From Stappia indica (GTDB lineage Bacteria > Pseudomonadota > Alphaproteobacteria > Rhizobiales > Stappiaceae), in assembly GCF_009789575.1 (NCBI RefSeq), contig NZ_CP046908.1, positions 1 through 64,000 of the forward strand: 64,000 bases of DNA, read 5' to 3'. Within the stretch, counting starts at the first letter, position 1; the number at the start of each line of letters is the position of its first letter. Below the pieces are notes generated by a model. That model did no database searches and was not told the origin of the DNA. It saw only the letters and a program-made list of their open reading frames with translations. A program made the translations under genes and the position numbers. This document shows, one piece after another, positions 28,387 to 47,453 of this stretch.

Positions 28387-29058
28387 ATGATCAACAAGCC
28401 GGATTTCGGCGCCGCCGTTGCGGACTCCGAAACGACGGACGCACATGCGGTAGGGAAGCTGGCTGTCGCCCCCGAGGACGGGGAGCGGGCCATCCTCTAC
28501 GGCATTCTGGCGAGCGGGCTGGAGCAGGCCGCGGATCGCGGCTGGCTGGCCGCTGTCGCGGCGCTCCCGCGGCTCGACGGAGAAATCGGTGCTCCGCTGG
28601 CAGAGCTTTCCCGTATCTCTGCGACTGTCGATCCCGAGGCGCTTCGGCGCGAGTATCACGACCTGTTCATCGGTGTCGGCCGGGGGGAGCTCGTCCCTTA
28701 CGCTTCGTACTATTTGACCGGTTTCCTGAACGAGAAGCCGCTGGCTCTGCTGCGTCAGGACATGCGCAGGCTCGGTATCGAGCGCGATCCCGACATTCAC
28801 GAGCCGGAGGACCACATCGCGGCGGTTTGCGCGATGATGGCCGGACTGATCGACGGCAGCTTCGGCGAAGGGGGCGAGGACGAGGCTTCCGCCTTCTTCC
28901 GCGCCCACCTTGCCGTTTGGGCGCCCTATTTCTTCAAGGATCTGGCGGCGTCCACGACGGGCGAGCTGTATCCGGCGCTGGGGCGTCTGGGGCAGGCGTT
29001 CCTTGCGGTCGAGGTCGAGGCGGACAGGCTTTTTGCGGAGCGCCGCAAGACGGGTTGA
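28387..29058 (+). CDS. TorD/DmsD-family molecular chaperone for formate dehydrogenase
   Basis: A 223-residue all-helical protein with the TorD family landmarks REYHDLFIGVGRGELVPYASYYL (the family Y/F-x-x-L-F-x-G-P-G region) and EPEDHIAAVCAMM, where EPxDH is at residues 139-143. These chaperones hold molybdoenzyme precursors until the cofactor is in place and proofread TAT export. Its position as first gene of the FDH operon points to the alpha subunit as client. The ATG at 28387 follows GAGGGAG. Confidence 0.88.
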   Translation: MINKPDFGAAVADSETTDAHAVGKLAVAPEDGERAILYGILASGLEQAADRGWLAAVAALPRLDGEIGAPLAELSRISATVDPEALRREYHDLFIGVGRGELVPYASYYLTGFLNEKPLALLRQDMRRLGIERDPDIHEPEDHIAAVCAMMAGLIDGSFGEGGEDEASAFFRAHLAVWAPYFFKDLAASTTGELYPALGRLGQAFLAVEVEADRLFAERRKTG

Positions 29059-29143
29059 GTATCTGGCCCGGCGACGACCGGGCAAAGGCGGGCAGTCGGC
29101 ACAGCAACTGCCCAGGGCAATGGTGATGGAACGAGAGGGTGTC

Positions 29144-29335
29144 ATGAGACGCAAGGACACAGCGATTGAGGCGGATCGTCGGAGCTTCCTGAAGCTTGCA
29201 GGGCTCGGTGCCGTCGCAGGTACCGCGACGCTCGTCACCGGCGAGGCCGAAGCGGTCGAGGCCGACAAGGCGGCCGGCAGCGGCTATCGCGAGACCGAGC
29301 ATGTGAAGACCTTCTACGACACGGCCCGGTTCTGA
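29144..29335 (+). CDS. Formate dehydrogenase region TAT-target small protein
   Basis: A 63-residue protein with a strong twin-arginine signal, DRRSFLKLAGLGAVAGTA (arginines 12-13), then a short mature part of about 25 residues ending HVKTFYDTARF. It matches the TIGR02811 type found beside FDH alpha genes in many proteobacteria. The role is unknown; it could be exported bound to the enzyme or be a decoy/assembly factor. The ATG at 29144 follows GAGAGGG. It ends 118 bases before the alpha subunit. Confidence 0.85.
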   Translation: MRRKDTAIEADRRSFLKLAGLGAVAGTATLVTGEAEAVEADKAAGSGYRETEHVKTFYDTARF

Positions 29336-29452
29336 CCCCCAAGGTCGCCGGACTGTCTTGAGTCGAAATCAATGCCCCGAGCCACAGGCAAAAAGGGGCA
29401 TGCGCAGAATGACCGTCACGAAGCGGACCTGCGCAATCGAGGGAGAAACGTG

Positions 29453-32434
29453 ATGCTGAGGAAGAAGACGAGCGGGACTGCGCGTCGTTCCAGCCTGGCT
29501 TCCGCGATCGAGGCGATCGGCGCCAGCGCGATGGATCGCCGTACGTTCCTGCGCAGGTCGGGCCTTGCTGCGGGCGGGCTCGCGGCGGCCGGGGCACTCA
29601 CCGGCGGCATGGTGCGCAAGGCCGAGGCGGCCGGGCCGACCAATGCCAAGGTGGATATCAAGAAGACGGTTTGCACGCACTGCTCCGTCGGCTGTACCGT
29701 GCTGGCGGAAGTCCAGGACGGCGTGTGGACTGGCCAGGAGCCGGGCTTCGACAGCCCGTTCAACCTCGGCTCGCATTGCGCCAAGGGCGCCTCGGTGCGT
29801 GAGCACGCTCATGGCGAGCGCCGCCTGAAGTACCCGACCAAGCTGGTCGGCGGAAAGTGGGAGCGCATTTCCTGGGATCAGGCGATCAACGAGATCGGCG
29901 ACCAGATGCTGAAGATCCGCGACGAGAGCGGTCCGGACAGCGTCTACTGGCTCGGTTCGGCCAAGCACAGCAACGAGCAGGCCTACCTGGTGCGCAAGTT
30001 CGCCGCCTTCTGGGGCACGAACAACGTCGACCACCAGGCGCGTATCTGTCACTCCACCACGGTCGCAGGTGTCGCGAACACCTGGGGCTACGGTGCGATG
30101 ACGAACTCGTACAACGACATCCACAATTCCAAGGCGATCTTCATCATCGGCGGCAATCCCGCCGAGGCGCACCCGGTCTCCCTGCTTCACGTGCTGAAGG
30201 CGAAGGAAGAGAACGCCGCGCCGCTGATCGTATGCGATCCGCGCTTCACCCGCACCGCAGCGCATGCGTCCGAGTATGTCCGTTTCCGTCCGGGCTCCGA
30301 CGTCGCACTGGTCTGGGGCATCCTTTGGCACATCTTCGAGAACGGCTGGGAGGACAAGGAGTTCCTGCGCCAGCGCGTCTGGGGCATGGACCAGGTCAAG
30401 GCCGAGGTGGCCAAGTGGACGCCGGAAGAGACCGAGCGCGTCACCGGCGTACCGGGGTCGCAGCTGAAGCGCGTCGCCCGTACCCTGGCCAACAACCGTC
30501 CGGGCACCGTCATCTGGTGCATGGGCGGCACCCAGCACACCAACGGCAACAACAACACCCGCGCCTACTGCGCCCTTCAGCTGGCTCTCGGCAACATGGG
30601 CAAGGCCGGCGGCGGCACCAACATCTTCCGCGGCCATGACAACGTGCAGGGGGCGACGGACCTGGGCGTGCTTGCCGACACGCTGCCGGGCTACTACGGC
30701 CTGGCAGAGGGCTCCTGGCGCCACTGGGCGCGCGTGTGGGGCGTTTCCTACGACAGCCTTGCCGAGCGCTTCGCCACGATGAAGGGCGCAGACGGCAAGG
30801 ACAAGCCGATGATGTTCGAGAACGGCATCACGGTGTCGCGCTGGATCGACGGCGTGCTGGAAGACAAGGCGAACCTGCTTCAGCCGGACAACACCCGCGC
30901 GATGGTGTTCTGGGGCCATGCTCCGAACTCGCAGACCCGTCTGCCCGACATGAAGCGGGCGATGGAGAAGCTCGACCTGCTGGTCATCATCGATCCGTTC
31001 CCGACCATGTCGGCGGTGATGCATGACCGCAAGGACGGCGTCTACCTGCTGCCGGCGACGACCCAGTTCGAGACCTACGGCTCGGTGACGGCATCGAACC
31101 GCTCGCTGCAGTGGCGCGAGAAGGTCATCGATCCGCTGTTCGAGTCCAAGACCGACCACACCATCGCGTATCTCTTCGCGAAGAAGTTCGGTTTTGCCGA
31201 GGACATGTTCAAGAACATTGAGGTGAACGGCGAGGAGCCGCTCATCGAGGACGTGACCCGCGAGTTCAATCGCGGCATGTGGACCATCGGTTACACCGGC
31301 CAGTCGCCGGAGCGGATGAAGCTGCACATGGAGAACCAGCACACGTTCGACCGCACGACCCTGCGCGCCAATGGCGGCCCGGCGGATGGCGACTTCTACG
31401 GCATGCCCTGGCCGTGCTGGGGGACTGCCGAGATGAATCATCCCGGTTCGGCGGTGCTCTACGACACGTCTCTGCCGGTCGCCGAGGGCGGCATGGGCTT
31501 CCGTGCCCGTTTCGGCGTGGAGAAGGACGGCGACAACCTGCTGGCCGAGGGCTCCTGGCCGGTCGGTTCGGAAATCGAGGACGGCTATCCCGAGTTCACC
31601 ATGGCCATGCTGATCAAGCTCGGCTGGGACAAGGATCTGACGCCGTACGAGCGGCGGATGATCGAGTGGACGGCCGGCATGATCGATACCATGCCTTCGT
31701 CGGAAGAGGTCGGCGAGACCTCGCAGACCGGCGAAATCCCGTCGGACTACAACGACCGGGTCGGCGGCGTGAACTGGAAGACCGACCTGTCCGGCGGCAT
31801 CCAGCGCGTTGCGATCAAGCACGGCTGCGCGCCTTACGGCAACGCCAAGGCCCGTGCCGTCGTGTGGACCTTCCCGGATCCGGTGCCGCTGCACCGCGAG
31901 CCGCTCTACACCAGCCGCCGCGACCTGCTCGACAAGTATGCGACCTATGAGGACAAGACCTTCTGGCGCGTCCCCACCCGCTACAAGTCGATCCAGGAGA
32001 ACGACTATTCCAAGGACTTCCCGATCATCCTGACCTCGGGGCGTCTGGTGGAATACGAGGGCGGCGGCGACGAGACCCGCTCCAACCCGTGGCTGGCCGA
32101 GCTGCAGCAGGACATGTTCATCGAGGTCAATCCGCGCGATGCCAACAATCTTGGCGTTCGCGACAGGGAAATGGTCTGGGTGCACGGTCCGGAAGGCGGC
32201 AAGGTCAAGGTGATGGCCATGGTGACCGAACGCGTCGGCGTGGGCGTTGCCTTCATGCCGTTCCACTTCGGCGGCCATTTCCAGGGCGAGGACCAGAGGC
32301 ACAAGTATCCGACCGGTTCGGATCCCTATGTGCTCGGCGAGGCGACCAACACGGCCCAGACCTACGGCTATGACAGCGTCACCCAGATGCAAGAAACCAA
32401 GGCCACGCTCTGCCGCATCGAGCGCGTGGCGTAA
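29453..32434 (+). CDS. fdhA: Formate dehydrogenase alpha subunit (Mo-bisMGD, Cys type)
   Basis: The 993-residue catalytic subunit oxidises formate to CO2. It starts with a TAT signal (MDRRTFLRRSGLAAGG, arginines 29-30). The [4Fe-4S] site has cysteines 74, 77, 81 and 109 (CTHCSVGC and SHCAKG). The active site is Cys199-His200 in HQARICHSTTV, cysteine instead of selenocysteine. Further landmarks are GGNPAEAHPVS, VCDPRFTRTA, WCMGGTQHTNGNNNTRA and the C-terminal cofactor domain with TSGRLVEY. Length fits FdnG/FdoG-type membrane-linked enzymes. The ATG at 29453 follows GGGAGAAAC. Cofactor genes at 22-25 kb and 48 kb and a chaperone gene upstream support it. Confidence 0.95.
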   Translation: MLRKKTSGTARRSSLASAIEAIGASAMDRRTFLRRSGLAAGGLAAAGALTGGMVRKAEAAGPTNAKVDIKKTVCTHCSVGCTVLAEVQDGVWTGQEPGFDSPFNLGSHCAKGASVREHAHGERRLKYPTKLVGGKWERISWDQAINEIGDQMLKIRDESGPDSVYWLGSAKHSNEQAYLVRKFAAFWGTNNVDHQARICHSTTVAGVANTWGYGAMTNSYNDIHNSKAIFIIGGNPAEAHPVSLLHVLKAKEENAAPLIVCDPRFTRTAAHASEYVRFRPGSDVALVWGILWHIFENGWEDKEFLRQRVWGMDQVKAEVAKWTPEETERVTGVPGSQLKRVARTLANNRPGTVIWCMGGTQHTNGNNNTRAYCALQLALGNMGKAGGGTNIFRGHDNVQGATDLGVLADTLPGYYGLAEGSWRHWARVWGVSYDSLAERFATMKGADGKDKPMMFENGITVSRWIDGVLEDKANLLQPDNTRAMVFWGHAPNSQTRLPDMKRAMEKLDLLVIIDPFPTMSAVMHDRKDGVYLLPATTQFETYGSVTASNRSLQWREKVIDPLFESKTDHTIAYLFAKKFGFAEDMFKNIEVNGEEPLIEDVTREFNRGMWTIGYTGQSPERMKLHMENQHTFDRTTLRANGGPADGDFYGMPWPCWGTAEMNHPGSAVLYDTSLPVAEGGMGFRARFGVEKDGDNLLAEGSWPVGSEIEDGYPEFTMAMLIKLGWDKDLTPYERRMIEWTAGMIDTMPSSEEVGETSQTGEIPSDYNDRVGGVNWKTDLSGGIQRVAIKHGCAPYGNAKARAVVWTFPDPVPLHREPLYTSRRDLLDKYATYEDKTFWRVPTRYKSIQENDYSKDFPIILTSGRLVEYEGGGDETRSNPWLAELQQDMFIEVNPRDANNLGVRDREMVWVHGPEGGKVKVMAMVTERVGVGVAFMPFHFGGHFQGEDQRHKYPTGSDPYVLGEATNTAQTYGYDSVTQMQETKATLCRIERVA

Positions 32435-32446: not shown

Positions 32447-33046
32447 ATGGCACGGATGAAATTCCTCTGTGACGCCGAGCGCTGCATCGAGTGCAATGCC
32501 TGCGTCACTGCCTGCAAGAACGAGCACGAGGTGCCGTGGGGCATCAATCGTCGCCGCGTGGTGACCATCCAGGACGGCAAGCCGGGCGAGCGCTCGATTT
32601 CCGTCGCCTGCATGCACTGCTCCGACGCGCCCTGCATGGCGGTGTGCCCGGTCGACTGCTTCTATCAGACCGACGAGGGTGTGGTCCTTCACTCCAAGGA
32701 CCTGTGTATCGGTTGCGGCTACTGCTTCTATGCGTGCCCCTTCGGCGCGCCGCAGTATCCGCAGGCGGGCAACTTCGGTTCGCGCGGCAAGATGGACAAG
32801 TGCACCTTCTGCGCCGGCGGCCCCGAGGCGGACAATTCCTCGGCCGAATACGCCAAGTACGGCCGCAACCGTCTGGCTGAGGGCAAGCTCCCGCTCTGTG
32901 CGGAGATGTGCTCGACCAAGGCTCTGCTGGCTGGCGACGGCGACGTGGTCTCGTCCATCTATCGCGAGCGTGTCGTGGCCCGCGGCTTCGGCTCCGGAGC
33001 CTGGGGATGGGGAACCGCCTACGAGCAGAAAGCCGGCAGCTTCTGA
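32447..33046 (+). CDS. Formate dehydrogenase beta subunit, 4x[4Fe-4S] (FDH3 type)
   Basis: A 199-residue electron-transfer subunit with sixteen cysteines in four clusters: ERCIECNACVTACKNEH, CMHCSDAPCMAVCPVDC, CIGCGYCFYACPFG, and the split set KCTFC with LCAEMCSTKAL. It carries electrons from the alpha subunit to the cytochrome b. Unlike E. coli FdnH it has no C-terminal membrane helix, and it has no signal of its own, so it should be exported together with alpha. It begins 12 bases after the alpha stop. Confidence 0.94.
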   Translation: MARMKFLCDAERCIECNACVTACKNEHEVPWGINRRRVVTIQDGKPGERSISVACMHCSDAPCMAVCPVDCFYQTDEGVVLHSKDLCIGCGYCFYACPFGAPQYPQAGNFGSRGKMDKCTFCAGGPEADNSSAEYAKYGRNRLAEGKLPLCAEMCSTKALLAGDGDVVSSIYRERVVARGFGSGAWGWGTAYEQKAGSF

Positions 33047-33149: not shown

Positions 33150-33347
33150 GTGAAATCGGGATCCGCCACCTGGGGCATGTTGGTCGTCGCGGGAGCGCTG
33201 CTGGCGCTGGTTCCGGGCTGCCGGGACGACGAGCAGAATCGCCCGCTGCATCTCGAAAAGGGCGTCTATCAGGGTGCGGAAGATGCCCCGCTGACGGCGG
33301 AAGAGCAACGTGCCCTGCAGGAGCGCGGCAACCGGCAGCGCTTCTAG
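33150..33347 (+). CDS. Small lipoprotein-like protein of the formate dehydrogenase operon
   Basis: A 65-residue product starting at GTG 33150 after GAGGAGAG. It has a hydrophobic segment (WGMLVVAGALLALVPGC) ending at cysteine 24, a plausible but imperfect lipobox, then a charged mature part (LHLEKGVYQGAEDAPLTAEEQ). Similar short proteins are found between FDH subunit genes in alphaproteobacteria. It may help anchor or assemble the periplasmic complex. No function is known. Confidence 0.72.
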   Translation: MKSGSATWGMLVVAGALLALVPGCRDDEQNRPLHLEKGVYQGAEDAPLTAEEQRALQERGNRQRF

Positions 33348-33403: not shown

Positions 33404-34564
33404 ATGAACGACACGGGAACCGCGCGCCCCGCACATATCTCGGACGGTGTTGTCCGGCGGCTTCGCATCGCTCTCTTGGCGGTTTTCGCCGCGCTGTTCC
33501 TTGCGATTGCGGTGCAGGATCCGGCTCTTGCGCAGCAGCCGGTCGACAACGATCCGGCAGCCGCATCGCCCGTACAGGGACAGGTGCCCGGCAACACGCT
33601 GGGAACGGATTCCGATACCGAAATGTGGCGTGCCGTGCGCCAGGGCGTCGCCGGACAGGTGTCCATCCCGGACCAGAACGCTGCGACCCTCGTCCAGTCG
33701 GAGGGGGAGCTTTGGCGCTCGATCCGCAATGGCCCGCTTGCGCTCTATGCCAGCTGGGCGATGCTGGCGATGGTGGTGGTGCTGAGCCTGTTCTTCGCGA
33801 TCCGCGGCCGGATCCGCATCGAGCACGGCCGGTCCGACCAGACCATCACGCGCTTTGCCGCCTTCGAACGTTTCGGCCACTGGCTGCTTGCATCATCCTT
33901 CATCATCCTGGCGCTGACCGGCCTCAATGTGATGTACGGCCGATACGTTTTGCTGCCGTTGATCGGCCCGGAAGCCTTCGGCGCGCTGACGATCTTCGGC
34001 AAGTACCTGCACAACTATCTCGCCTTCGCCTTCATGGCGGGCCTCGTCATCATCTTCGTGATGTGGGTGAGCCACAACCTGCCGCACAAGACCGACATCA
34101 AGTGGGTGCTTCAGGGCGGCGGCATCTTCTCGCGCAAGCTTCACCCGCCTGCGAAGAAGTTCAACGCCGGGCAGAAGGTCATCTTCTGGCTGACGATCCT
34201 CGGCGGCCTGTCGATCTCCCTGTCCGGCTGGACTCTGCTCTTTCCGTACACCACGCACTTCTTCTCCGGCACGTTCGAGCTGGTGAACACCGTGTTCGGG
34301 ACCGCGCTGCCGGTGCCGCTGTCGCCCTTGCAGGAGCAGCAGCTCGCCTCGCTCTGGCACGCGATCATGAGCGTGTTCCTGATCTGCGTGATCATCGCCC
34401 ACATCTACATCGGCACCATCGGCATGGAAGGCGCGTTCGATGCGATGGGGTCCGGCGAGGTCGATCTCAACTGGGCGAAGGAGCACCACTCGCTCTGGGT
34501 CGACGAGGTGATGGCTCGCGAGGCGGAGCACAAGGGGACGACAAAGATCCAGCCCGCAGAATAG
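33404..34564 (+). CDS. Formate dehydrogenase gamma subunit, cytochrome b556 type
   Basis: The membrane anchor and quinone-reducing subunit, 386 residues. A signal-like hydrophobic start (about 20-43) and a periplasmic extension of some 70 residues come before the four-helix cytochrome b core. Core helices begin with ERFGHWLLASSFIILALTG, YLHNYLAFAFMAGL, FWLTILGGLSISLSGW and LWHAIMSVFLICVIIAHIYIG, which hold candidate heme-ligand histidines. The N-terminal extension is longer than in E. coli FdnI. The start follows GGGGAGGGAC. It is 57 bases after the small lipoprotein. Confidence 0.92.
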   Translation: MNDTGTARPAHISDGVVRRLRIALLAVFAALFLAIAVQDPALAQQPVDNDPAAASPVQGQVPGNTLGTDSDTEMWRAVRQGVAGQVSIPDQNAATLVQSEGELWRSIRNGPLALYASWAMLAMVVVLSLFFAIRGRIRIEHGRSDQTITRFAAFERFGHWLLASSFIILALTGLNVMYGRYVLLPLIGPEAFGALTIFGKYLHNYLAFAFMAGLVIIFVMWVSHNLPHKTDIKWVLQGGGIFSRKLHPPAKKFNAGQKVIFWLTILGGLSISLSGWTLLFPYTTHFFSGTFELVNTVFGTALPVPLSPLQEQQLASLWHAIMSVFLICVIIAHIYIGTIGMEGAFDAMGSGEVDLNWAKEHHSLWVDEVMAREAEHKGTTKIQPAE

Positions 34565-34577: not shown

Positions 34578-35966
34578 GTGTCGGCAGTGATCAACGCCTT
34601 CTTCGTCATTCTGGGGCTCATGCTGGTGGGCGGCCACGCGGTCGCCGCCGGCGACGAGCCTGTGCAGGCCTGGCCGGAGCGGCTGCAGGGGCATGGCGGT
34701 CCGGTTCGTTCGGTCGCGCTCGATACGGATGACAAGCGCGCGCTGACGACATCCTTCGACTACTCGGTCATCCTCTGGAGGTTCGAGACGGGCGAGGGGG
34801 AGGTCGTTCATCGCATGATCGGCCACGAGGCCGCGGCGAACGATGCCGCCTTCGCCGGAGAGCAGCGCGCCGTGTCGGTCGGCGATGATGGCTCCGTCAT
34901 CCTGTGGAACCTGTCCGACGGCGCGGTGCTGGACCGCGTCGATACCGGCGACGACAAGATGCTGGCGGTCTCCGTCAGTGCCGATGGGCAATTTGCCGCG
35001 ACGGCCTCGTGGGATCGTACCGCCAGGATCTTCGCGCTGGAGGGCGACAGGCTGTCCGAGCGCGCGGTGCTGGACGGGCATCGCGGCAACGTCAATGCCG
35101 TCGCCTTTTCCCAGGACGGCGGCCGTGTGTTCACCGCCTCCTATGACGGCGCCATCCGTGTGTTCGAACGCGAAAGCGGAGAGATGCTGCGCGAGGTCTA
35201 TTCGCACGGCTGGGGCGTCAACGTGATGCGCCTGCTCCCGGGCGAGACGCATCTGGCCTTCGGCGCGACGGATGGCGCGGTTGCCGTGATCGACATCGCG
35301 CAAGGCGCGGTGTTCAAGCAGCTTGCTAGCCACGAACGGCCGGTTCTGTCTCTGGCGCTGTCGCGCGACGGGAGCCGGCTTGCCAGCGGCGGCGGCGACG
35401 GGCGCATCCGTGTCTACGACACCGGCGAGTGGGGCTTGCTGGAAGAGTTCGAGAACCCCTATGGCCCGGTCTGGGGACTCGCCCTGCCGTCCGGTGGCGC
35501 GGTCGCGCTTTATGCCGGGCTGGACGATCACGTGAACACCTGGCAGGTGGCGCCGCGCGAGCCGTTCGAGCCGGTGGAAAGCCAGTTTCCGCGCCGGTTC
35601 CAGGTCTCGGCGGAGGACGATCTCGGACGCCGGCAGTTCGCGCGCAAGTGTTCCGTCTGCCACACGCTTACACCCGATGGCGGCAATCGCGCCGGCCCGA
35701 CGCTCTACGGCGTGTTCGGGCGGCGCGTCGGCACCTTGCCCGGCTATCCCTATTCCGATGCGCTGAAGCGTCTCGACTTCCTGTGGGACGAGCAGACGAT
35801 CTCGGATCTCTTCGACCATGGCCCCGACGTAGTGACGCCGGGCTCCAAGATGCCGATCCAGCGTCTGCGGAGCGACGAGGAGCGTGATGCGCTGGTGGCC
35901 TATCTGAAACGTGCGACCGCGCCCGAAGGGAGCGGGGCGGACAGCCAAGGAGAACAGAAGCAATGA
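34578..35966 (+). CDS. WD40 beta-propeller fused to a class I cytochrome c
   Basis: A 462-residue secreted protein: signal peptide (about 1-24), WD40-like repeats over about residues 30-335 (for example SVILWRFETG, SVILWNLSDG, RTARIFALEG, AIRVFERESG, RIRVYDTGEW), then a cytochrome c domain with CSVCH (Cys358, Cys361, His362) and the axial methionine probably 425 in GSKMPIQ. It starts at GTG, 14 bases after FDH gamma, so it belongs to the operon. It is a good candidate for a periplasmic electron acceptor or docking subunit of FDH. The C-terminal ATGA overlaps the next small gene. Confidence 0.88.
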   Translation: MSAVINAFFVILGLMLVGGHAVAAGDEPVQAWPERLQGHGGPVRSVALDTDDKRALTTSFDYSVILWRFETGEGEVVHRMIGHEAAANDAAFAGEQRAVSVGDDGSVILWNLSDGAVLDRVDTGDDKMLAVSVSADGQFAATASWDRTARIFALEGDRLSERAVLDGHRGNVNAVAFSQDGGRVFTASYDGAIRVFERESGEMLREVYSHGWGVNVMRLLPGETHLAFGATDGAVAVIDIAQGAVFKQLASHERPVLSLALSRDGSRLASGGGDGRIRVYDTGEWGLLEEFENPYGPVWGLALPSGGAVALYAGLDDHVNTWQVAPREPFEPVESQFPRRFQVSAEDDLGRRQFARKCSVCHTLTPDGGNRAGPTLYGVFGRRVGTLPGYPYSDALKRLDFLWDEQTISDLFDHGPDVVTPGSKMPIQRLRSDEERDALVAYLKRATAPEGSGADSQGEQKQ

Positions 35967-36127
35967 AGGCGTTCCTGAGCGCAATCCTGGCGCTCGCGGT
36001 GATCGGGACGGGGGCCTGGGCCTATCTGACCCGCGAGCTCGATTATTCGTCGGCCTCGGTCTACTCGTCCCACACTCCGGGTGCGGTCCGGCTGTCCCCC
36101 GATTCCGGCAAGCGACCGGGCGAATGA
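35963..36127 (+). CDS. 54-residue single-pass membrane protein, coupled to WD40-cytochrome c and protease genes
   Basis: Starts at ATG 35963 inside the stop of the WD40-cytochrome gene (ATGA) with AAGGAGAACAG just upstream, and ends in another ATGA shared with the protease gene. The product has one N-terminal hydrophobic helix (MKAFLSAILALAVIGTGAWA) and a short polar tail with TRELDYSSASVYSSHTPG and AVRLSP. The double stop/start overlap and good ribosome site make it a real gene although it is very short. It may anchor the cytochrome or the protease. I recognise no family. Confidence 0.75.
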   Translation: MKAFLSAILALAVIGTGAWAYLTRELDYSSASVYSSHTPGAVRLSPDSGKRPGE

Positions 36128-39744: not shown

Positions 39745-40647
39745 ATGTTCACCTCCGAAAACGGCCGCGCCATCCTGTTCATGATGCTGGCCATGGCCGG
39801 TTTCATCGTGAACGACAGCTTCGTCAAGCTGGTCTCCGAGCGCCTGCCGCTTGGCGAGATCATGTTCGTGCGCGGCGTGATGGCGCTGGTGCTGGTGTTG
39901 GGGCTCGGCGTGATCAACGGCGAGGTGAGGCGGTTTCACCTGCTGGCGAGCCGGCTGGTCGGACAGCGCGTCTTTGCCGAGGTGACTGCGACGGTGCTGT
40001 ACCTGACGGCGCTCTTCAACATGGAGATCGCCAACGCCACCGCGATCCTCCAGGCGTTGCCGCTGCTGGTGACGGCAGGTGCGGCAATGTTCCTGGGCGC
40101 GCCGGTCGGCTGGCGGCGCTGGACGGCCATCACGGTCGGCTTCAGCGGCGTCCTTCTGATCGTGCGTCCGGGCATGGAGGGGTTCAACGCCTGGGCGCTG
40201 ATGGCTCTCGCCGGAGTGCTCTTCATGGCCTTGCGCGACCTCACGACCAGCGTGCTGCCGAAGAACGTCCCGACGCTCGGCGTCACCTTCGCCACTCTTG
40301 TCGGGGTCACCGTCACGGGGCTTGCGCTCTCCCTTGGCGAAGAGTGGACGATGCCGTCGCTTCTGGACCTGACATTCCTTGCCGCGGCCGCCTGTTTCAT
40401 CCTGATCGGCTTCGTCTGCATCATCAACGCGATGCGCATCGGCGACATCTCGCTGGTCGCCCCGTTCCGCTATTCGATCATCGTCTGGGCGATCATCATC
40501 GGCTATTTCGTGTGGGGTGACGTCCCCGACCTGCCGACACTCGCCGGAATCGCCATCGTCGTTGCCACGGGGCTCTACAGCCTGATGCGTGAACGCAAGA
40601 AACTGAACGAGGCCGGACCTGCCGCTACGGCCGACTTGCCTCGATGA
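39745..40647 (+). CDS. DMT-superfamily (EamA) transporter
   Basis: A 300-residue protein with ten hydrophobic helices in two EamA repeats (about 8-135 and 150-285). Landmarks are IVNDSFVKLVSERLPLGEIMFVRG, NATAILQALPLLVTA and ISLVAPFRYSIIVWAIIIGY. Members export amino acids, nucleosides or other metabolites; the substrate is not evident. No clear ribosome site precedes the ATG. It does not belong to the FDH set by family and appears inserted in it. Confidence 0.87.
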   Translation: MFTSENGRAILFMMLAMAGFIVNDSFVKLVSERLPLGEIMFVRGVMALVLVLGLGVINGEVRRFHLLASRLVGQRVFAEVTATVLYLTALFNMEIANATAILQALPLLVTAGAAMFLGAPVGWRRWTAITVGFSGVLLIVRPGMEGFNAWALMALAGVLFMALRDLTTSVLPKNVPTLGVTFATLVGVTVTGLALSLGEEWTMPSLLDLTFLAAAACFILIGFVCIINAMRIGDISLVAPFRYSIIVWAIIIGYFVWGDVPDLPTLAGIAIVVATGLYSLMRERKKLNEAGPAATADLPR

Positions 40648-40704
40648 GCGGCAGGTCTCGCCAAGGCTTGCCAACGTGCCGTCGCACGCCATAAAGCAGA
40701 TCGT

Positions 40705-41928
40705 ATGACAAATTCCCTCCCTTCGGCAGTGCCGGAGCGGCGCCCCACAATCGCGCTCCTTGTTGCCGTCTCCGCCGTCAATCCCCTGGCTCTCAATATC
40801 TACCTGCCGTCGATGCCGACGCTGGTGGATATCTTCGATACGACCGCCGGCATGGTGCAGCTGACGCTGTCGCTCTACCTGGCGGCCGTGGCGATCGCCC
40901 AGATCGGCATCGGCCCGCTCTCGGACCGGCACGGGCGGCGCCCGGTGCTGATGTGGGGCCTCGGCATCTTCATCGTCGGCAGCGTCGTCTGCGTACTGGC
41001 CGACACCATCGAGACGATGCTGATCGGCCGTGTGCTGCAGGCGGCCGGCGGTTGCGCGGGCATCGTGCTGGGGCGCGCCATCGTGCGCGACCTGTTCGAC
41101 CGCAGCCAGGCGGCCAGCATGATCGGCTACGTCACGATGGGGCTGGCGGTGGCCCCGATGATCGGGCCGGCCATCGGCGGTGCGCTGGACGAGAATTTCG
41201 GCTGGGGCACCAGTTCCTACCTGATGGTGGTTCTCGGCATCATCGTCTTCATCTGGGCCTGGTTCGAACTGCACGAGACCAACCACAACCGCGCCGCCGC
41301 CGGCGGCGGATTGCGCGGGCTGGTGCGCAGCTACGGTGTGCTTGCCCGTTCGCCGCTGTTCGTCAGTTACGCGCTGACCTCGGCCTTCACGTCCGCCGTG
41401 TTCTTCTCCTTCCTCGGCGGAGCGCCCTTCATCGCGGCGAAGCTCATGAACATGACGCCCTCCACCTACGGGCTCTATTTCATGATGGTCGCGGCGGGCT
41501 ATATCGTCGGCAACTGGACGTCCGGGCGTTTTTCCGCACGGATCGGCATCGGCCGGATGATCAACGGCGGCAACATCATCCTCAGCCTTGCGGTGATCGC
41601 CATTGCCGTCGCCTTCGGGATGGGGCACGTGCATCCGATGTCGCTGTTCGGCCCGATGTTCGTCGTCGGCGTCGGAAACGGCATGTCGCTGCCCAACGCC
41701 ATTGCCGGTGCCGTCAGTGTCCGGCCGGATCTTGCCGGCGCCGCTTCGGGCTTCACGGGCAGCATGCAGATCGGCGCCGGTGCGATCACCTCGGCACTGG
41801 TCGGCTGGCTGCTGACGGGGGTTCTCTGGCCGGGCACCATCTGGCCGCTGGTTCTCGTCATGGCCGTCAGCTGCTGCGTGGCCGTCGCATCCGGCGTTGC
41901 GGCAAGGCTGCTTGAAGCGGCGGAATAG
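40705..41928 (+). CDS. Bcr/CflA-type MFS multidrug efflux transporter
   Basis: A 407-residue MFS transporter with twelve predicted helices. It has LNIYLPSMPTL at the first helix, the loop motif GPLSDRHGRRPVLMWGL and, in helix 5, AVAPMIGPAIGG, which is typical for drug/proton antiporters of the Bcr/CflA group (chloramphenicol, bicyclomycin, sulfonamide type). The actual substrate is unknown. It lies 57 bases after the EamA gene on the same strand. Confidence 0.88.
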   Translation: MTNSLPSAVPERRPTIALLVAVSAVNPLALNIYLPSMPTLVDIFDTTAGMVQLTLSLYLAAVAIAQIGIGPLSDRHGRRPVLMWGLGIFIVGSVVCVLADTIETMLIGRVLQAAGGCAGIVLGRAIVRDLFDRSQAASMIGYVTMGLAVAPMIGPAIGGALDENFGWGTSSYLMVVLGIIVFIWAWFELHETNHNRAAAGGGLRGLVRSYGVLARSPLFVSYALTSAFTSAVFFSFLGGAPFIAAKLMNMTPSTYGLYFMMVAAGYIVGNWTSGRFSARIGIGRMINGGNIILSLAVIAIAVAFGMGHVHPMSLFGPMFVVGVGNGMSLPNAIAGAVSVRPDLAGAASGFTGSMQIGAGAITSALVGWLLTGVLWPGTIWPLVLVMAVSCCVAVASGVAARLLEAAE

Positions 41929-42039
41929 GCAAGCCGTGCGGCAGGCGGTATCGTCTTTGCCTGTTCGCCGCTTGTCGGCGCCGCGCATTGCACCAGTTAC
42001 CGGCAGTTCGTGAAGCCGAAAGCCACACGAGGTCCTGCA

Positions 42040-43458
42040 ATGTCGAGAAGGTCCGGGCCGTCGCGCCGTTTGCTGATTCAGTCTGCGCTCGCCGCGGGCG
42101 CCTTGCCGTTTCTGCCTCGTGTCTCCCTGGCGGGCACATCCGGCCCGACCACTTTGGTGGCAAGGCCGGGCACGGCATCGCTTTGGGAAGAGGGCGGTCC
42201 GCTCGCCGAGATCTGGGGCTATGACGGCGGCGTGCCCGGGCCGGTTCTTCGGATGCGGCAGGGAGAAACCTTGCGCGTGAACTTTCGAAACGAGCTCGAC
42301 CAGCCCTCGACCATCCATTGGCACGGCATCCGGATCGACAATGCCTATGACGGCGTTGCCGGCCTGACGCAGGAACCGGTCGCGCCCGGCGAGACGTTCG
42401 AATATCTCGTAAAGGCACCGGACGCGGGCACCTTCTGGTACCACCCGCACAACCGCAGCTGGGAGCAGATGGCGCGCGGCCTCTATGGCGTTCTCATCGT
42501 GGAGGAGCAGGACCCCGTCGCCGTCGACCGCGATCTCGTCATGGCCTTCGACGACTGGCGGCTCAACGAGGCGCGGCAGATCGATGTGGCGAGCCTTGGC
42601 ATGCTGCACGACTGGGCCCATGCCGGCCGGCTCGGCAATGTGCTCACCGTCAACGGGCAGCCCTATCTGAAGCAGGTGGTCCGACCCGGCGAGCGATTGC
42701 GCCTGCGCATCCTCAACACGGCCAATGCACGCGTGCTCCAGCTTCGGTTCGCCGGCCTTTCGCCGGTCGTCCTGGCGCTGGATGGCCAGCCGGTGGAGCC
42801 TTATCCCCTGGCCGACGAGACGCTGGAGATCGCCCCGGCGCAGCGCTGCGATCTCATGGTCGACGTGCCGGGCGAGGCGGCTGTGTTCAAGGTCGAGGAA
42901 GTTTCCCGCGAGCCCTTTGCGGCGTGCGAGCTGCGCGCCGAAGGAAACCCGGTCGCCCGCGCAGATCCCTTGCCCGAGACCTTGCGGCTGCCGGCGAACC
43001 CGCTGACGACCGCGCTCGATCTCGATGACGCCCTGTCGGTCGATCTGCTGATGGAGGGCGGGGCGATGGGGCGCATGAGCGAAGCGATGCTGCATGGTGA
43101 GAAAAAGGGCATGCGCGATCTCGTGGAGGCAGGCAAGGTCTGGAGCTTCAACGGCATCGCCGGCAGCCATCACGACCCGGCGCTGTTTTCAGCCGGGCTT
43201 GGGCGCACGGTGCGCATGCCTATCGTCAACGACACGCGCTGGCCGCATGCGATCCACCTGCACGGCCACCACTTCCGGGTTCTCAACCGGAACGGCGCGC
43301 CGGTTGCACGGGAAGAGTGGCGCGACACGGTGCTGACCGCACCGGGCGAGCGTGTCGAAATTGCCTTCGTCGCGGACAATCCCGGCAAGTGGATGCTCCA
43401 CTGCCACATGCTCGAACATCAGGAAGCCGGCATGATGAGCTGGTTCGAGATAAGCTGA
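42040..43458 (+). CDS. TAT-exported multicopper oxidase
   Basis: A 472-residue periplasmic oxidase. The N-terminus has a twin-arginine signal (PSRRLLIQSALAAGALPFLP). Copper ligands are complete: HWHG (His93, His95), WYHPHNRS (His135, His137), IHLHGHHF and the C-terminal HCHMLEHQEAGMM, where the cysteine is the type 1 copper ligand and the last methionine its likely axial ligand. It resembles the FtsP/CueO/CumA group. No copper-resistance genes are adjacent. The ATG at 42040 follows GAGGTCCTGC; a GTG at 42010 is possible but has no ribosome site. Confidence 0.9.
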   Translation: MSRRSGPSRRLLIQSALAAGALPFLPRVSLAGTSGPTTLVARPGTASLWEEGGPLAEIWGYDGGVPGPVLRMRQGETLRVNFRNELDQPSTIHWHGIRIDNAYDGVAGLTQEPVAPGETFEYLVKAPDAGTFWYHPHNRSWEQMARGLYGVLIVEEQDPVAVDRDLVMAFDDWRLNEARQIDVASLGMLHDWAHAGRLGNVLTVNGQPYLKQVVRPGERLRLRILNTANARVLQLRFAGLSPVVLALDGQPVEPYPLADETLEIAPAQRCDLMVDVPGEAAVFKVEEVSREPFAACELRAEGNPVARADPLPETLRLPANPLTTALDLDDALSVDLLMEGGAMGRMSEAMLHGEKKGMRDLVEAGKVWSFNGIAGSHHDPALFSAGLGRTVRMPIVNDTRWPHAIHLHGHHFRVLNRNGAPVAREEWRDTVLTAPGERVEIAFVADNPGKWMLHCHMLEHQEAGMMSWFEIS

Positions 43459-43516
43459 CCCTCGCCGCAGGGCGGACAGGTCGAGGCCACACCAACAGGA
43501 GAGGAACGTTTCCCGC

Positions 43517-43819
43517 ATGGCCAACAGACAGGAACGGCGCGCAGGGCGCGCGTCAGGGACGCTCGACACGACCGGATTCCTGCAGGTCGCGGGAAAATTC
43601 ATCGACGTGGCGAACCGCGAGAACCGCAAGATCCCGGCGACCGACCTGCAGATGGCGTTTCTCTGGGCTGCCGCACGCTACAACGCGCATGTGGCGAAGA
43701 CCGTAATCGGGGTCGAGGATCACGAGGAGTTCGTAACCCGGATGGTCGAGAGCTATCGCGAGATGCTGCGCCAGAACCTCGCCGATCCGGAGCTGGATCC
43801 GCCAGCAGGAAGCGCTTGA
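43517..43819 (+). CDS. DUF5076 family protein
   Basis: A 100-residue soluble protein with FIDVANRENRKIPATDLQMA and LWAAARYNAHVAKTV, which I assign to DUF5076. Function unknown; the family often lies near formate dehydrogenase genes. The ATG at 43517 follows GAGAGGAACG. It converges with the 4Fe-4S protein gene across a hairpin. Confidence 0.72.
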   Translation: MANRQERRAGRASGTLDTTGFLQVAGKFIDVANRENRKIPATDLQMAFLWAAARYNAHVAKTVIGVEDHEEFVTRMVESYREMLRQNLADPELDPPAGSA

Positions 43820-43832
43820 GGTAGATCGGGTG

Positions 43833-43861
43833 AAAACCGGTCGCCGCCGGGCGGCGACCGG
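43833..43861 (-). terminator. Rho-independent terminator of the 4Fe-4S protein gene
   Basis: A perfect 11-bp stem CCGGTCGCCGC / GCGGCGACCGG with a 3-base loop; on the minus strand it is followed by TTTT. It begins six bases past the stop at 43868 and lies between the convergent genes. Confidence 0.8.
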
Positions 43862-43867
43862 CCAATA

Positions 43868-45907
43868 TCAGTTGTCCTTGAGGAAGTCGTCCGCGGTCAG
43901 CGGTCCTTTTTCCATGGCCAGGTAATCGTCCGTGGTGACGATCCGCGGCCGCGCACCGCCGCGCAGCGGCGTGTCGTCCATCTCCCACTGCGCCGAGATC
44001 CGGCAGTCATCGCACATCTCGATCAGGGCGATCTGGTCGGCACGCTGGAACATCCAGTGCTTGCCGGAGAGTTTTTCGCGGATGCGGGCGATGGATGAGC
44101 GGGTACCGAAGGCCTTGCCGCAGGAGACGCAGGTGGCCGGCTCTTCCTCATGCAGCACCTCCGGCCGCATGGCGCTTGGCGCGGCGTTGTAGCGCGCATC
44201 CAGCGTGATGACCTGCTCCGGACAGGTATTGGCGCAAAGGCCGCACTGCACGCAGGCTGCTTCCGTCAGGCTGACCTGGGGCTTGTCCGGGTTGTCGGAG
44301 AGCGCTGCTGTCGGACAGGCGGAAACGCAGGCGAGGCAGAGCGTGCAGCCGTCCGAGGCGATCTGGATGCGGCCATAGGGCGCGTGCGCAGGCAGGGCGA
44401 TCATCTCCTGCGGCATCGGAGCGCCCTCCAGCAGCCGGGCGATTGCGCTGCGGGCGACGTCGCGCTTGGTGCCGACCGGATCGAAGCTTGCAGAGCGCAC
44501 GGATAGCGGGGTCGCCTCCAGCTTGAAATAGCTGGAGACGGCGTCCGGGTCGTCTTCGACGGCGATGGCGAAGGCGCCGTGAGGCTTGTGCCCCATGCCG
44601 GCGAGCAGGCTCTCGCAGAGCTCGATCTCCATGCGCAGGGCGTCCAGCTCATGCGCCTTGGAGGGCGGACAGAGGAACACGATGCGCTTTGCGCCGGCGA
44701 GGACGGCGGCGAGCATCGCGTCATGGCCGAAGCTCGTGACGGCATGGGCGCCATGCGGCAGCACGTTGCCCGGCAGGCCTTCGCCGAGGCGGGCGAGCGC
44801 ATTGATGATGTCGCCGCCATGCTGGCTTTCGTGGATGAGGAGAACGGCATCCTTGCCGCCCGCCTCGCGATAGGTGCCGAGCAGCGCCTGGAGCCGGCGG
44901 ATCTGGCTGCCGCGCTCCGGGTAGCGGTAGCTGACGGCGCCTGTGGGGCAGTGGGCTGCACAGGAGCCGCAGCCGCCGCAAATGCCCGGGTCGATGACGA
45001 TCTCGCGCCCCGTGCTCGAAATCGCCCCCGCGGGACAGGCATCCAGGCAGTTGGTGCAGCCGGTCTTGCCCGAGCGACCATGGGCGCAGATCGAAGCGTC
45101 GTAGGTGACGTAGAGCGGCTTTTCGAACGTGCCGACCATGTCCGCGATGTCGAACATCGCCCGTGCCACGGCGGCCGGATTGCCGGGGTCGACGCGGATG
45201 TAGCCGTCGCGCTTGGAGGGCGCGCTGACCAGCGGCGTTCCGCCCGACAGGTCGAGGATCAGGCTGCAATTGGCGCGTGCGCCGTCGCGGGCCAGGGCAA
45301 AGGAAGGCGCGCCGCGAGACGATGGCAGCATCTGGGCGTAGCCGTCGACCGTGACCTCGAAATCGCCGAGCGATCCCTTGAGCATGCGGATGCGCCCCAT
45401 GTGCACCGGGATTTCCAGCGTGCCGGGCAGAATGAGATCGGAGGCATCGCTGAGCAGCAGCGAGACCGACAGCCGACCCTCCAGGGCCCGTGCCGCGTCG
45501 AGCGCCTGCTGGCCGGCGCCGTAGACGAGGCAGACCCCGTCCGACTCGATCGAGTGCAGGGCGGCGGGAACGGAGGGTGTCAGCGCTTCGGCGAGCAGGG
45601 CCGAGATCTTCGGATGCGGGTCGGTCGACGTGCCGCACCAGCCGGCGCGTTCGCGGATGTTGACGAAGGAGAGCTCCTGGTCGGCACCCCGTTCCTCGGC
45701 GACCTCCTGGAACAGCGGGGCTTCCTGCGTGCAGGCGACAAGGAGCGGCTCACCGGTCGCCAACGCCTTTTCGAACGAGGCGATCTGCGCGCGGCACAGC
45801 TGGGTATGAACGGTGTGGTCCTTGTCCAGCCCTGCGATGCGGCCTGCGTCGAGACGCATGGTCTTCTCGCAGTTGCACAGCATGACCCGGGGTTTGCTCG
45901 ACGCCAT
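43868..45907 (-). CDS. Polyferredoxin-like 4Fe-4S protein of the formate dehydrogenase module (HdrA/MvhD-like parts)
   Basis: A 679-residue cytoplasmic protein with four ferredoxin clusters in two pairs: CTNCLDACPAGAI and CGGCGSCAAHCPTGA near residues 295-335, and CTLCLACVSACPTAA with CVQCGLCANTCPEQ near 540-590. Further cysteine pairs are at both ends (LCNCEKT; CVSCG and MCDDC). The N-terminal third has CTQEAPLFQEV, and a segment near 370-460 (HGAHAVTSFGHDAMLAAVLAGAKRIVFL) looks like the MvhD/delta region. The start at 45907 follows GGAGGAAC. It may deliver electrons or clusters to FDH. It is divergent from DUF3305. Confidence 0.8.
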   Translation of the reverse strand: MASSKPRVMLCNCEKTMRLDAGRIAGLDKDHTVHTQLCRAQIASFEKALATGEPLLVACTQEAPLFQEVAEERGADQELSFVNIRERAGWCGTSTDPHPKISALLAEALTPSVPAALHSIESDGVCLVYGAGQQALDAARALEGRLSVSLLLSDASDLILPGTLEIPVHMGRIRMLKGSLGDFEVTVDGYAQMLPSSRGAPSFALARDGARANCSLILDLSGGTPLVSAPSKRDGYIRVDPGNPAAVARAMFDIADMVGTFEKPLYVTYDASICAHGRSGKTGCTNCLDACPAGAISSTGREIVIDPGICGGCGSCAAHCPTGAVSYRYPERGSQIRRLQALLGTYREAGGKDAVLLIHESQHGGDIINALARLGEGLPGNVLPHGAHAVTSFGHDAMLAAVLAGAKRIVFLCPPSKAHELDALRMEIELCESLLAGMGHKPHGAFAIAVEDDPDAVSSYFKLEATPLSVRSASFDPVGTKRDVARSAIARLLEGAPMPQEMIALPAHAPYGRIQIASDGCTLCLACVSACPTAALSDNPDKPQVSLTEAACVQCGLCANTCPEQVITLDARYNAAPSAMRPEVLHEEEPATCVSCGKAFGTRSSIARIREKLSGKHWMFQRADQIALIEMCDDCRISAQWEMDDTPLRGGARPRIVTTDDYLAMEKGPLTADDFLKDN

Positions 45908-45992
45908 GTCGTTCCTCCGTGGCGCGCGCCCGTCCTGCCCAGGGGCACCGGCGAGCCGCTCTTGTTCGATTTGCCTGACACTAGCGCAATTC

Positions 45993-46009
45993 GTGAGGAT
46001 TTTCCTTAC
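45993..46009. promoter_or_regulatory. Dyad in the divergent promoter region of the 4Fe-4S and DUF3305 genes
   Basis: GTGAGGA-TTT-TCCTTAC is a 7-bp dyad with one mismatch in the 248-base gap between divergent start codons. A TTGTGCG half-site follows at 46020-46026, like the one upstream of the FDH operon. Functional assignment is inference. Confidence 0.35.
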
Positions 46010-46155
46010 CTGCCTGAACTTGTGCGCATCCTTGTCGGTCGTGGACGTAAGGTGCGAGCGTCCGCCAACACGGCCGCATTGCCTTTCCCCTTCGCGTGCC
46101 CCAGAATTACGTAGATACGGCAATATCGGACCGCATCGTGCGAGGAGGATTTTAC

Positions 46156-46692
46156 GTGCAAAGGGAAGTGCTTGCGCCGTTCGGCATCGTGCTGGAACGT
46201 CGCCCGTCCTCCTCGAAATGGGCGGACTGGTCGTGGAAAGTCACGGAAGTGATCCCCGACGCACCGGCCACCGACGGATGGACGGTCATCCACGACGGCG
46301 ATGGCATCACCCGCTATCTGTCCGCGCCGCACATGCTTGTCCTGCATCACAAGATGGTGGAGGCCTACGACGCCAACATCGAGACCGGCACGCCGTCGAT
46401 CTGGGCGATGCTGGACGACGAGATCACGCCGAAGACACCGCCCTACAGGGTGCGCGGCGTGACGGCCGATCCCTATGAGGCACAGGGCGTGCTCGACAGC
46501 GCCGCCGGACTGGTGGAGCGGGTCGCCATGCCGCGCGAGACGGTGGCCTGGATGGCGCACTATCTCTCCTCGCTGCCGGAGGCGCCGGCTTTCCGCAAGC
46601 GCCGGCGTGATCGCATCGAGACCGAGAAGCAGATCTTCGGCAAGGAGCCGATCTTCTCGCCGCTCGGCCGCAGGGAGGAGCGGGAGCCGTGA
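46156..46692 (+). CDS. DUF3305 family protein
   Basis: A 178-residue soluble protein with FGIVLERRPSSSKWADWSWK, YLSAPHMLVLHHKMVEAYDAN and PSIWAMLDDE, typical of DUF3305. GTG at 46156 follows AGGAGG at ideal distance; the frame is open 60 bases further up with no ribosome site. DUF3305 and DUF3306 genes go with formate dehydrogenase in many alphaproteobacteria but have no known activity. It overlaps the DUF3306 gene by four bases. Confidence 0.83.
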   Translation: MQREVLAPFGIVLERRPSSSKWADWSWKVTEVIPDAPATDGWTVIHDGDGITRYLSAPHMLVLHHKMVEAYDANIETGTPSIWAMLDDEITPKTPPYRVRGVTADPYEAQGVLDSAAGLVERVAMPRETVAWMAHYLSSLPEAPAFRKRRRDRIETEKQIFGKEPIFSPLGRREEREP

Positions 46693-47453
46693 GCGCCGAG
46701 ACCGACCGCGGCTTTCTCTCGCGCTGGTCGCAGCGCAAGCAGGCAGCGCGCCAGCAGGTCGGCGAGCGCGCCGAAGACGAGCAGGCGGGTCTCGTCGACG
46801 AGCCGAGTTCCGAACTCTCCCACGGCGAGCCGGAGGGCGAAGCCCAGCATCTGGGCTCGACGCGCGAAGAGGTTGCCGAGGCCAACCGGGCGGCAGCCGA
46901 GGCTGTCGATCTCGAGACGCTCGCCTTCGACTCTGACTTCTCGCTCTTCCTGAAGGAGGGCGTCTCCACCCAGCTCAAAAACGCGGCGCTGCGCAAGCTC
47001 TGGCGTTCCAATCCGGTGCTGGCCTGCGTCGACGGCCTCAACGACTACGACGAGGATTACCGTACGGTCGAGACCTTTGCTGACGGGATCCGCTCGTCCT
47101 GGCAGGTCGGCAAGGGCTACAGCTGGATGTCCGAGGTAGAGGAAAAGCTGGAGGCGGTGGCCGATGCTGTCGATATCCAGCCCGCTTCGGACGAGGTTCT
47201 TGAACGCGCTTCGGGCGAGGCGATGCCGGACACTCCGCAAGGCCTAGAGATCGAGGTCTCCGACCTCTCAGATTTGGAGAGCGATGACCCGAAGGCTCTG
47301 GCGGAGACGCCCGAGGCAGAGAGCGAGCCGGTGCAAGAGCGGCTTTCGCTCATGGCACCCATGACCCGCGATGACGGGGAGGTGGCTCGTCCGCGCACGC
47401 CTGCCGCCCAGGAGCCCGCTCGTCCCGCACGTCGGCGTGTCCGCTTCACCTGA
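46689..47453 (+). CDS. DUF3306 family protein
   Basis: A 254-residue protein. The family core is FLSRWSQRKQAAR at the start and LKEGVSTQLKNAALRKLWRSNPV with ACVDGLNDYDEDY near residues 95-130. Between and after these the chain is very acidic and probably disordered (EEKLEAVADAVD, SDLSDLESDDP), with a basic end RRVRF. GTG start, coupled to DUF3305. Function unknown. Confidence 0.82.
   Translation: MSAETDRGFLSRWSQRKQAARQQVGERAEDEQAGLVDEPSSELSHGEPEGEAQHLGSTREEVAEANRAAAEAVDLETLAFDSDFSLFLKEGVSTQLKNAALRKLWRSNPVLACVDGLNDYDEDYRTVETFADGIRSSWQVGKGYSWMSEVEEKLEAVADAVDIQPASDEVLERASGEAMPDTPQGLEIEVSDLSDLESDDPKALAETPEAESEPVQERLSLMAPMTRDDGEVARPRTPAAQEPARPARRRVRFT

Follow-up and report, generated by a model that had tools for sequence, protein, structure and literature searches.

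A candidate FdhE-independent biogenesis set for FDH3-type formate dehydrogenases at a locus of Stappia indica

The first 64,000 nucleotides of contig NZ_CP046908.1 of Stappia indica (assembly GCF_009789575.1; this whole stretch is called the window below) carry a locus for an FDH3-type formate dehydrogenase (FDH), which extends from the ATG of a TorD-family chaperone gene at 28387 to the stop codon of DUF3306 at 47453. On balance, we think it probable that the proteins encoded around the enzyme constitute an FdhE-independent biogenesis set for FDH3-class enzymes, built from a core of DUF3305, DUF3306, a polyferredoxin and TorD and extended by a mainly alphaproteobacterial add-on of a ligase-like protein, DUF6505 and DUF6352. 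A preliminary description of the locus had seen in these accessory proteins an undescribed step of maturation, regulation or electron transfer. Our results fit such a step and favour maturation over the other roles, because a protein family model fuses MobA to DUF3305 and because FdhE is absent.

Co-occurrence with FDH3

We searched one sample of 142 Alphaproteobacteria genomes, the same set for every family, for FDH3-beta, DUF3305, DUF3306, DUF6352, DUF6505, DUF6494, the ligase-like family PF16917 and FdhE. FDH3-beta scored over the NF038355 cut-off in 20 genomes. DUF3305 and DUF3306 share a single set of 23 genomes, composed of all 20 FDH3 genomes and three others (G071, G125 and G127), which amounts to 20/20 FDH3 genomes against 3/122 of the rest; in G071 and G127, FdhA lies on the DUF3305 contig and is cut at the contig end. 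Among the 75 genomes of at least 2.4 Mb the association is 20/20 against 3/55 (Fisher p = 2e-15, kinship ignored). DUF6352 occurs in 20/142 genomes (17/20 with FDH3, 3/122 without), ligase-like copies of at least 110 bits in 16/142 (14/20 and 2/122), DUF6505 over its cut-off in 13/142 (11/20 and 2/122) and DUF6494 in 25/142 (15/20 and 10/122). PF16917 as a whole is a general family, over its cut-off in 85 of the 142 genomes. The genome-wide co-occurrence proposed as a check in the preliminary description is thus borne out for DUF3305/DUF3306, DUF6352, the ligase-like protein and DUF6505, and only in part for DUF6494. A DUF6505 copy with an internal stop, perhaps a decaying remnant, was seen in a genome with neither FDH3 nor DUF3305 (G119; L119 L140 5365-5793).

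The association extends beyond the class. A sample of 398 Pseudomonadota genomes was searched for FDH3-beta (E <= 1e-50) and DUF3305; each was present in 61 genomes, and the two lists, compared by reading, are identical and span 14 families, of which f2, f140 and f141, if not more, also hold genomes with neither protein. These distributions bear on passive hitchhiking, in which the accessory genes would move with fdh in one transferable cluster and have no functional tie to it. Such transfer is in keeping with plasmids annotated in RefSeq for Bradyrhizobium sp. 131 and for Sinorhizobium meliloti LMB1, which carry the same cluster, in LMB1 with adjoining mobA and fdhD. Against it stand the identical 61 genomes from 14 families and the copies of DUF6352 that accompany FDH3 even where unlinked, 280 kb away in G028 and on other large contigs in G051, G105 and G128. 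We therefore consider hitchhiking very improbable.

A link to MobA and the absence of FdhE

The NCBIfam model NF011058, named 'MobA, DUF3305 domain-containing', has 382 positions and a cut-off of 820 bits. In the window, MobA matches its positions 8-199 with 197 bits and DUF3305 its positions 223-372 with 68 bits, the two being separate genes. All 53 DUF3305 proteins of an alignment match the model, and the order fdhD-mobA-DUF3305-DUF3306 occurs in G051, G125 and G128.

FdhE (PF04216) gave no match in any of the 20 class-sample genomes with FDH3, the window genome (G000) included, in a search whose E. coli control was positive. Over the whole class sample PF04216 exceeds its cut-off in three of 142 genomes, none of them with FDH3, and each of the three copies lies ~1.2-1.3 kb from a weak FDH-beta model match. 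A phmmer search of 138 loci with the E. coli query, run without a positive control, returned no FdhE-like open reading frame (ORF). As set out in part of a 2023 review, fdhE is systematically associated with exported FDHs, and E. coli needs FdhE for its own (PMC10609526). The earlier view that known factors already cover cofactor insertion was accordingly too strong, FdhE being missing here.

DUF3305, DUF3306, the polyferredoxin and TorD would probably act at the handover of the bis(molybdopterin guanine dinucleotide) (bis-MGD) cofactor and at Fe-S loading. In the mechanism that we infer, TorD would shield apo-FdhA and its twin-arginine translocation (Tat) peptide, while DUF3305, together with MobA and FdhD, would receive the sulfurated bis-MGD cofactor or present it to FdhA. 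The polyferredoxin, perhaps with the Fe-S carrier Mrp/ApbC, would load the Fe-S clusters of FdhAB or keep them reduced in the cytoplasm, DUF3306 might serve as a small adaptor, and the core set as a whole would fill the place that FdhE holds for FDH-N/O. FdhD is usually found near the core set. The non-catalytic ligase-like protein, DUF6505 and DUF6352 would form a second module, often added in Alphaproteobacteria and probably a further assembly scaffold. More tentatively, and with less confidence than in the general reading, we suggest that DUF3305, DUF3306 and the polyferredoxin make up a dedicated maturation pathway for exported FDHs, apart from FdhE and from NarJ/TorD alone; DUF3305 would hand bis-MGD, perhaps W-bis-MGD, from MobA/FdhD to FdhA, and a dead biotin-ligase fold with DUF6505 and DUF6352 would have been recruited in Alphaproteobacteria as a scaffold that holds cofactor or subunits.

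Two Shewanella genes, SO4504 and SO4505, are presumably those of DUF3306 and DUF3305, respectively. In part of a study of a Shewanella regulator mutant, SO4502-4506 and the FDH alpha gene SO4509 fall together (PMC2535785).

Gene inventory of the locus

The family assignments of the locus proteins were confirmed by hidden Markov model (HMM) searches. The genes of the locus and its flanks are as follows.

25365-21932, minus strand: FdhD-MobA-MobB-MoeA group, upstream of the locus
23747..24373, minus strand: MobA, MGD synthesis (TIGR02665, 200 bits; N-terminal half of NF011058, 197 bits)
24370..25365, minus strand: FdhD sulfurtransferase (TIGR00129, 151 bits, cut-off 140.9)
26716..27927, plus strand: Mrp/ApbC-type Fe-S carrier, a recurrent neighbour from a ubiquitous family
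28387..29058, plus strand: TorD/NarJ-family chaperone (PF02613, 105 bits, cut-off 22.2)
29120..29335, plus strand: FDH-region TAT mini-protein (TIGR02811, 51.1 bits, cut-off 48.45; start uncertain, 29120-29144)
29453..32434, plus strand: FdhA, the bis-MGD-type catalytic subunit; Tat motif DRRTFLRRS (start probably at 29453, in an ORF open from 29372)
32447..33046, plus strand: FdhB, FDH3-type beta subunit (NF038355, 345.1 bits, cut-off 240; 9vap_B, 336 bits)
33150..33347, plus strand: small lipoprotein of 65 residues (lipobox LVPGC by eye; matches no family)
33404..34564, plus strand: FdhC, an N-terminally extended cytochrome b subunit (TIGR01583, 146 bits, cut-off 115.85)
34578..35966, plus strand: WD40 beta-propeller with a cytochrome c domain, CSVCH (NF043008, 53.6 bits, below the cut-off of 240)
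36124..37044, plus strand: HtrA/Do-like protease with PDZ domain
37137..37328, plus strand: DUF6494 protein (HMM), only loosely tied to FDH3
37387..38202, plus strand: biotin/lipoate ligase-like protein without ligase motifs (PF16917, 192 bits)
38199..38687, plus strand: DUF6505 (160 bits)
38687..39700, plus strand: DUF6352 (PF19879, 305 bits, cut-off 25)
39745..43819, plus strand: interrupting genes for EamA, major facilitator superfamily (MFS), multicopper oxidase and DUF3144 proteins (HMM)
43517-43819, plus strand: DUF3144, the last of these (PF11342, 49 bits, cut-off 25)
43868..45907, minus strand: polyferredoxin of 679 residues, with four 4Fe-4S motifs and, at the C-terminus, two CX2C motifs; divergent from DUF3305
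46156..46692, plus strand: DUF3305 (PF11749, 106 bits, cut-off 25; ORF opens at 46096, start picked from a ribosome-binding-site-like stretch)
46689..47453, plus strand: DUF3306, a single conserved core in an otherwise poorly conserved protein
47489..47827, minus strand: small protein of no family whose N-terminal segment is hydrophobic (judged by eye), recurrent in the clusters of relatives
47829-48911, minus strand: MoaA, downstream of the locus

The FdhD-MobA-MobB-MoeA group, Mrp/ApbC, the WD40-cytochrome c protein, the HtrA-like protease and MoaA are absent from the list of the preliminary description. The members it did name were recovered by HMM (TorD, TAT mini-protein, FDH subunits, DUF6494, ligase-like protein, DUF6505, DUF6352, polyferredoxin, DUF3305 and DUF3306) or, for the lipoprotein, by its lipobox, with the exception of DUF5076: at 43517-43819 only DUF3144 matched at E <= 0.01. 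In several related loci, tblastn placed a copy of the small lipoprotein between the FdhB and FdhC genes. A protein with a BLUF blue-light sensor domain (PF04940) is encoded at 25417-26064, between FdhD and Mrp.

Joint expression had been proposed from tight spacing and stop/start overlaps. Such overlaps exist between the ligase-like gene and DUF6505 (ATGA), DUF6505 and DUF6352 (TGATG), and DUF3305 and DUF3306 (GTGA). Gaps separate the other genes, the polyferredoxin gene is on the minus strand, and the EamA, MFS, multicopper oxidase and DUF3144 genes stand between DUF6352 and the polyferredoxin; a single joint transcript is not established, because these gaps and interrupting genes split the cluster. 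The four interrupting genes are probably outside the system, DUF3144 less certainly so: among 80 named DUF6352 loci, HMM matches were obtained for EamA in 9, MFS in 10, multicopper oxidase in 5 and DUF3144 in 21.

The formate dehydrogenase

Judged from its sequence, the enzyme is an FDH3-type formate dehydrogenase with a predicted Tat signal, a Cys active site and a cytochrome b anchor. Its closest solved relative is SoFdhAB of Shewanella oneidensis (PDB 9VAP), to which FdhA aligns with 1429 bits (9vap_A) and FdhB with 336 bits (9vap_B). In the search of PDB chains FdhC matched no chain of 9VAP and matched 1kqf_C alone. The active-site stretch RICHSTTVAGV of FdhA is conserved in the alignment with SoFdhA and contains Cys, not selenocysteine. 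The Tat motif DRRTFLRRS was read by eye, so that export is a prediction.

SoFdhAB is presented, in part of the paper describing it, as a W/Cys enzyme in which tolerance of oxygen goes together with direct electron transfer for CO2 reduction, and Y776 and T927 of its oxygen tunnel are described there as vital for oxygen protection (PMC13397495). A Tyr and a Thr of the window FdhA align with these two residues, whose positions were counted along the alignment on the assumption that the paper and the PDB chain share one numbering. Since they align with oxygen-tunnel residues, the window FdhA may be oxygen tolerant. Membrane-FDH mutants in a Cupriavidus fitness study had no fitness effect, according to part of that report (PMC11540253).

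Gene order in relatives

Gene order was compared in 80 named DUF6352 loci, the best 80 of 581 confirmed relatives, a sample skewed to near kin and with stretches cut by contig ends. The nearest named relatives of the locus are from Stappia (L149, S. indica, 94% in DUF6352). FdhA is present in 37 of the 80, and these 37 loci contain the ligase-like gene (35), DUF3305 (33), the polyferredoxin (32), DUF6494 (30), the WD40-cytochrome c (28), the small protein of 47489 (24), DUF6505 (21), the HtrA-like gene (16) and Mrp (11). Thirty-one loci hold the ligase-like gene, DUF6505 and DUF6352, and in 30 of them the three form a contiguous run on a single strand; the polyferredoxin and DUF3305 are on opposite strands in 32/34 named loci. 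Across all 80 loci, the small protein of window positions 47489-47827 was observed in 31. In G022 and G096, a second Mrp/ApbC copy sits within the cluster, flanked by DUF6494 and the ligase-like gene (L113 14944-16005 and L114 4110-5234), a further copy lying elsewhere in the genome.

A second set of 20 loci was hand-picked from the 61 genomes of the phylum sample, 18 of them outside Alphaproteobacteria. Every one of the 20 contains DUF3305, DUF3306, the polyferredoxin, TorD and FdhABC; FdhD is nearby in 15 and Mrp in 6, and the polyferredoxin is on the DUF3305 strand in 17. DUF6352 occurs in two (L243 and L244, both from genomes of the same taxonomic order as the window), and the ligase-like gene and DUF6505 in these two and in L236, which is outside the class. 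The full set therefore recurs mainly in Alphaproteobacteria, as the preliminary description had expected, and the DUF3305/DUF3306/polyferredoxin core is found in other sampled classes as well.

Accessory proteins and alternative roles

Polyferredoxin and WD40-cytochrome c: The 16 ferredoxin Cys residues of the polyferredoxin are highly conserved, 15 of them being shared by at least 36 of the 37 sequences and the remaining one by 30, and the C-terminal CX2C pair is kept in 36/37. The WD40-cytochrome c protein (34578-35966) carries a CXXCH motif and a signal-like N-terminus, recognized by eye; it is recurrent in related alphaproteobacterial loci and is a candidate periplasmic electron partner. 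Both proteins could belong to an electron-transfer chain, in which the polyferredoxin would be the cytoplasmic redox partner of a reversible FDH, the WD40-cytochrome c the periplasmic acceptor, and the DUF proteins organisers of the chain and not assembly factors. The four conserved cluster motifs of the polyferredoxin are consistent with this arrangement, as is the HMM match of the WD40-cytochrome c in 28 of the 37 named loci with FdhA. However, the Tat motif of FdhA implies that the mature enzyme should face the periplasm, whereas the polyferredoxin has no signal peptide by eye; the WD40-cytochrome c HMM finds no match in 18/20 phylum loci, although the core set is complete in all 20; and the model joining DUF3305 to MobA is left unexplained. 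As an account of the whole set, electron transfer is thus unlikely, if the most substantial of the alternatives considered here. For the individual proteins, such a role is likely for the WD40-cytochrome c and possible for the polyferredoxin.

HtrA-like protease: The presence in the cluster of an HtrA-like protease with a PDZ domain could point to a regulatory or quality-control function, in which the protease and the DUF proteins would sense or degrade misassembled FDH without any part in cofactor handling. Yet the HtrA-like gene is found in just 16 of the 37 named loci with FdhA, and the window DUF proteins match no DNA-binding or kinase family (Pfam, E <= 0.01), which makes this role improbable.

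Loss of ligase motifs: Active biotin/lipoate ligases have a catalytic Lys and a GRGRRG adenylate loop. In 62 ligase-like copies, near-duplicates included, the loop is present in 0/62 and the catalytic Lys column holds K in 2/62, while two BirA-type controls keep both; the window protein has R in the Lys column and lacks the loop. That it could nonetheless be an active lipoate/biotin-type ligase modifying an FDH subunit, as its clear membership of PF16917 (192 bits) might suggest, is hardly credible given this motif loss. The closest solved structure to the ligase-like profile is 3BFM (E = 1.3e-76).

DUF6352 fold: The AlphaFold model of DUF6352 is confident (pLDDT, the predicted local distance difference test, 91.8). 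VIA-align gave no clear PDB match for it, a result that does not establish a new fold.

Weighing the biogenesis reading

Several observations weigh against a biogenesis set, or limit how much of the evidence can be credited to it. The distribution is imperfect. DUF6494 is present in 10 genomes without FDH3-beta, or 8 once G071 and G127 are treated as carrying FDH. G007 has DUF6352 without FDH3 or DUF3305, in an assembly of 810 contigs with 7% contamination. Copy numbers do not always agree: five genomes have two FDH3-beta copies, of which G330 has two DUF3305 copies and G369, G418, G443 and G458 one each. Because FDH3 genomes lack DUF6352 in three cases (G022, G075 and G096) and DUF6505 in nine, the alphaproteobacterial add-on is dispensable. 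The ligase-like copy of G087 (114.7 bits), one of the 14 counted in FDH3 genomes, is off the cluster, and its kind was assumed. Among the 80 named DUF6352 stretches, 31, some of them short contigs and one with an MFS match, carry no other cluster genes within the stretch compared. Mrp is ubiquitous (23/23 genomes and 14/14 controls), so its nearness is weak evidence.

The MobA and FdhE arguments have limits of their own. A fused MobA-DUF3305 ORF was not found in the loci examined, so that the fusion rests on the name and layout of the model, and both half matches are far below its cut-off of 820, as expected for half matches. In G125, where fdhD-mobA-DUF3305-DUF3306 and the polyferredoxin are present, FDH3-beta does not exceed its cut-off. 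Because FdhE is rare in the class (3/142), the lack of overlap with FDH3 is not significant (p = 1); FDH3 occurs without FdhE, and mutual exclusion is not implied. DUF3305 and DUF6352 show no relation to FdhE by hhalign (probability 0.05-0.2%), a weak test with a single FdhE sequence, and DUF6352 has no sequence relation to TorD. The Shewanella expression support is unspecific, because the FDH-N genes and fdhE fall too in the same mutant, as reported in part of that study (PMC2535785).

The G125 genes (L133 8683-13065) adjoin apparent DNA-repair genes; they may be a relict or serve a different client enzyme, unless a contig is missing.

Significance and comparison with known systems

A set of accessory proteins with one-to-one co-occurrence with FDH3 makes the assembly needs of the enzyme directly testable and could help its heterologous production; FDH3-class enzymes include SoFdhAB, which is relevant to CO2 reduction according to part of the work on it (PMC13397495). 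The systematic association of fdhE with exported FDHs, as put in part of the 2023 review (PMC10609526), contrasts with FdhE in 0/20 FDH3 genomes of the class sample. If the biogenesis reading is true, the set would help explain how FDH3 is built without this classical helper.

SoFdhAB (9VAP) is closely related in FdhA and FdhB and shares the active-site stretch and the Tyr/Thr pair. FdhE of FDH-N/O is likewise an accessory factor tied to exported FDHs, but it has no detectable relation to DUF3305 or DUF6352 and does not occur in the 20 class-sample genomes with FDH3. Four CX2C motifs are described for FdhE in part of the review (PMC10609526), and two are found at the C-terminus of the polyferredoxin, an analogy only. 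The FdhABC enzyme of Campylobacter jejuni has the TorD homologue FdhM and fdhD in its FDH operon, as the same source notes in part (PMC10609526), a parallel to the TorD-type chaperone here. For the ligase-like protein, the nearest solved structure, 3BFM, is annotated as a 'biotin protein ligase-like protein of unknown function'; no paper on it was found among open-licence PMC papers. For the MobA-DUF3305 arrangement of NF011058, the window has a separate homologue of each half, encoded ~22 kb apart.

The link of DUF3305/DUF3306 to fdh was partly published in 2015. The relevant part of Bay et al. places DUF3305, DUF3306 and hybA upstream of 60% of dmsD-fdhGHI operons, calls DUF3305 and DUF3306 putative membrane proteins and suggests that they are co-regulated; torD-fdh operons are described there with lipoproteins and ferredoxins, and fdh tat and fer4 are named in the legend of a figure (PMC4464133). 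Compared with that part of their work, the one-to-one co-occurrence, the MobA link, the absence of FdhE and the alphaproteobacterial add-on come from the present analysis.

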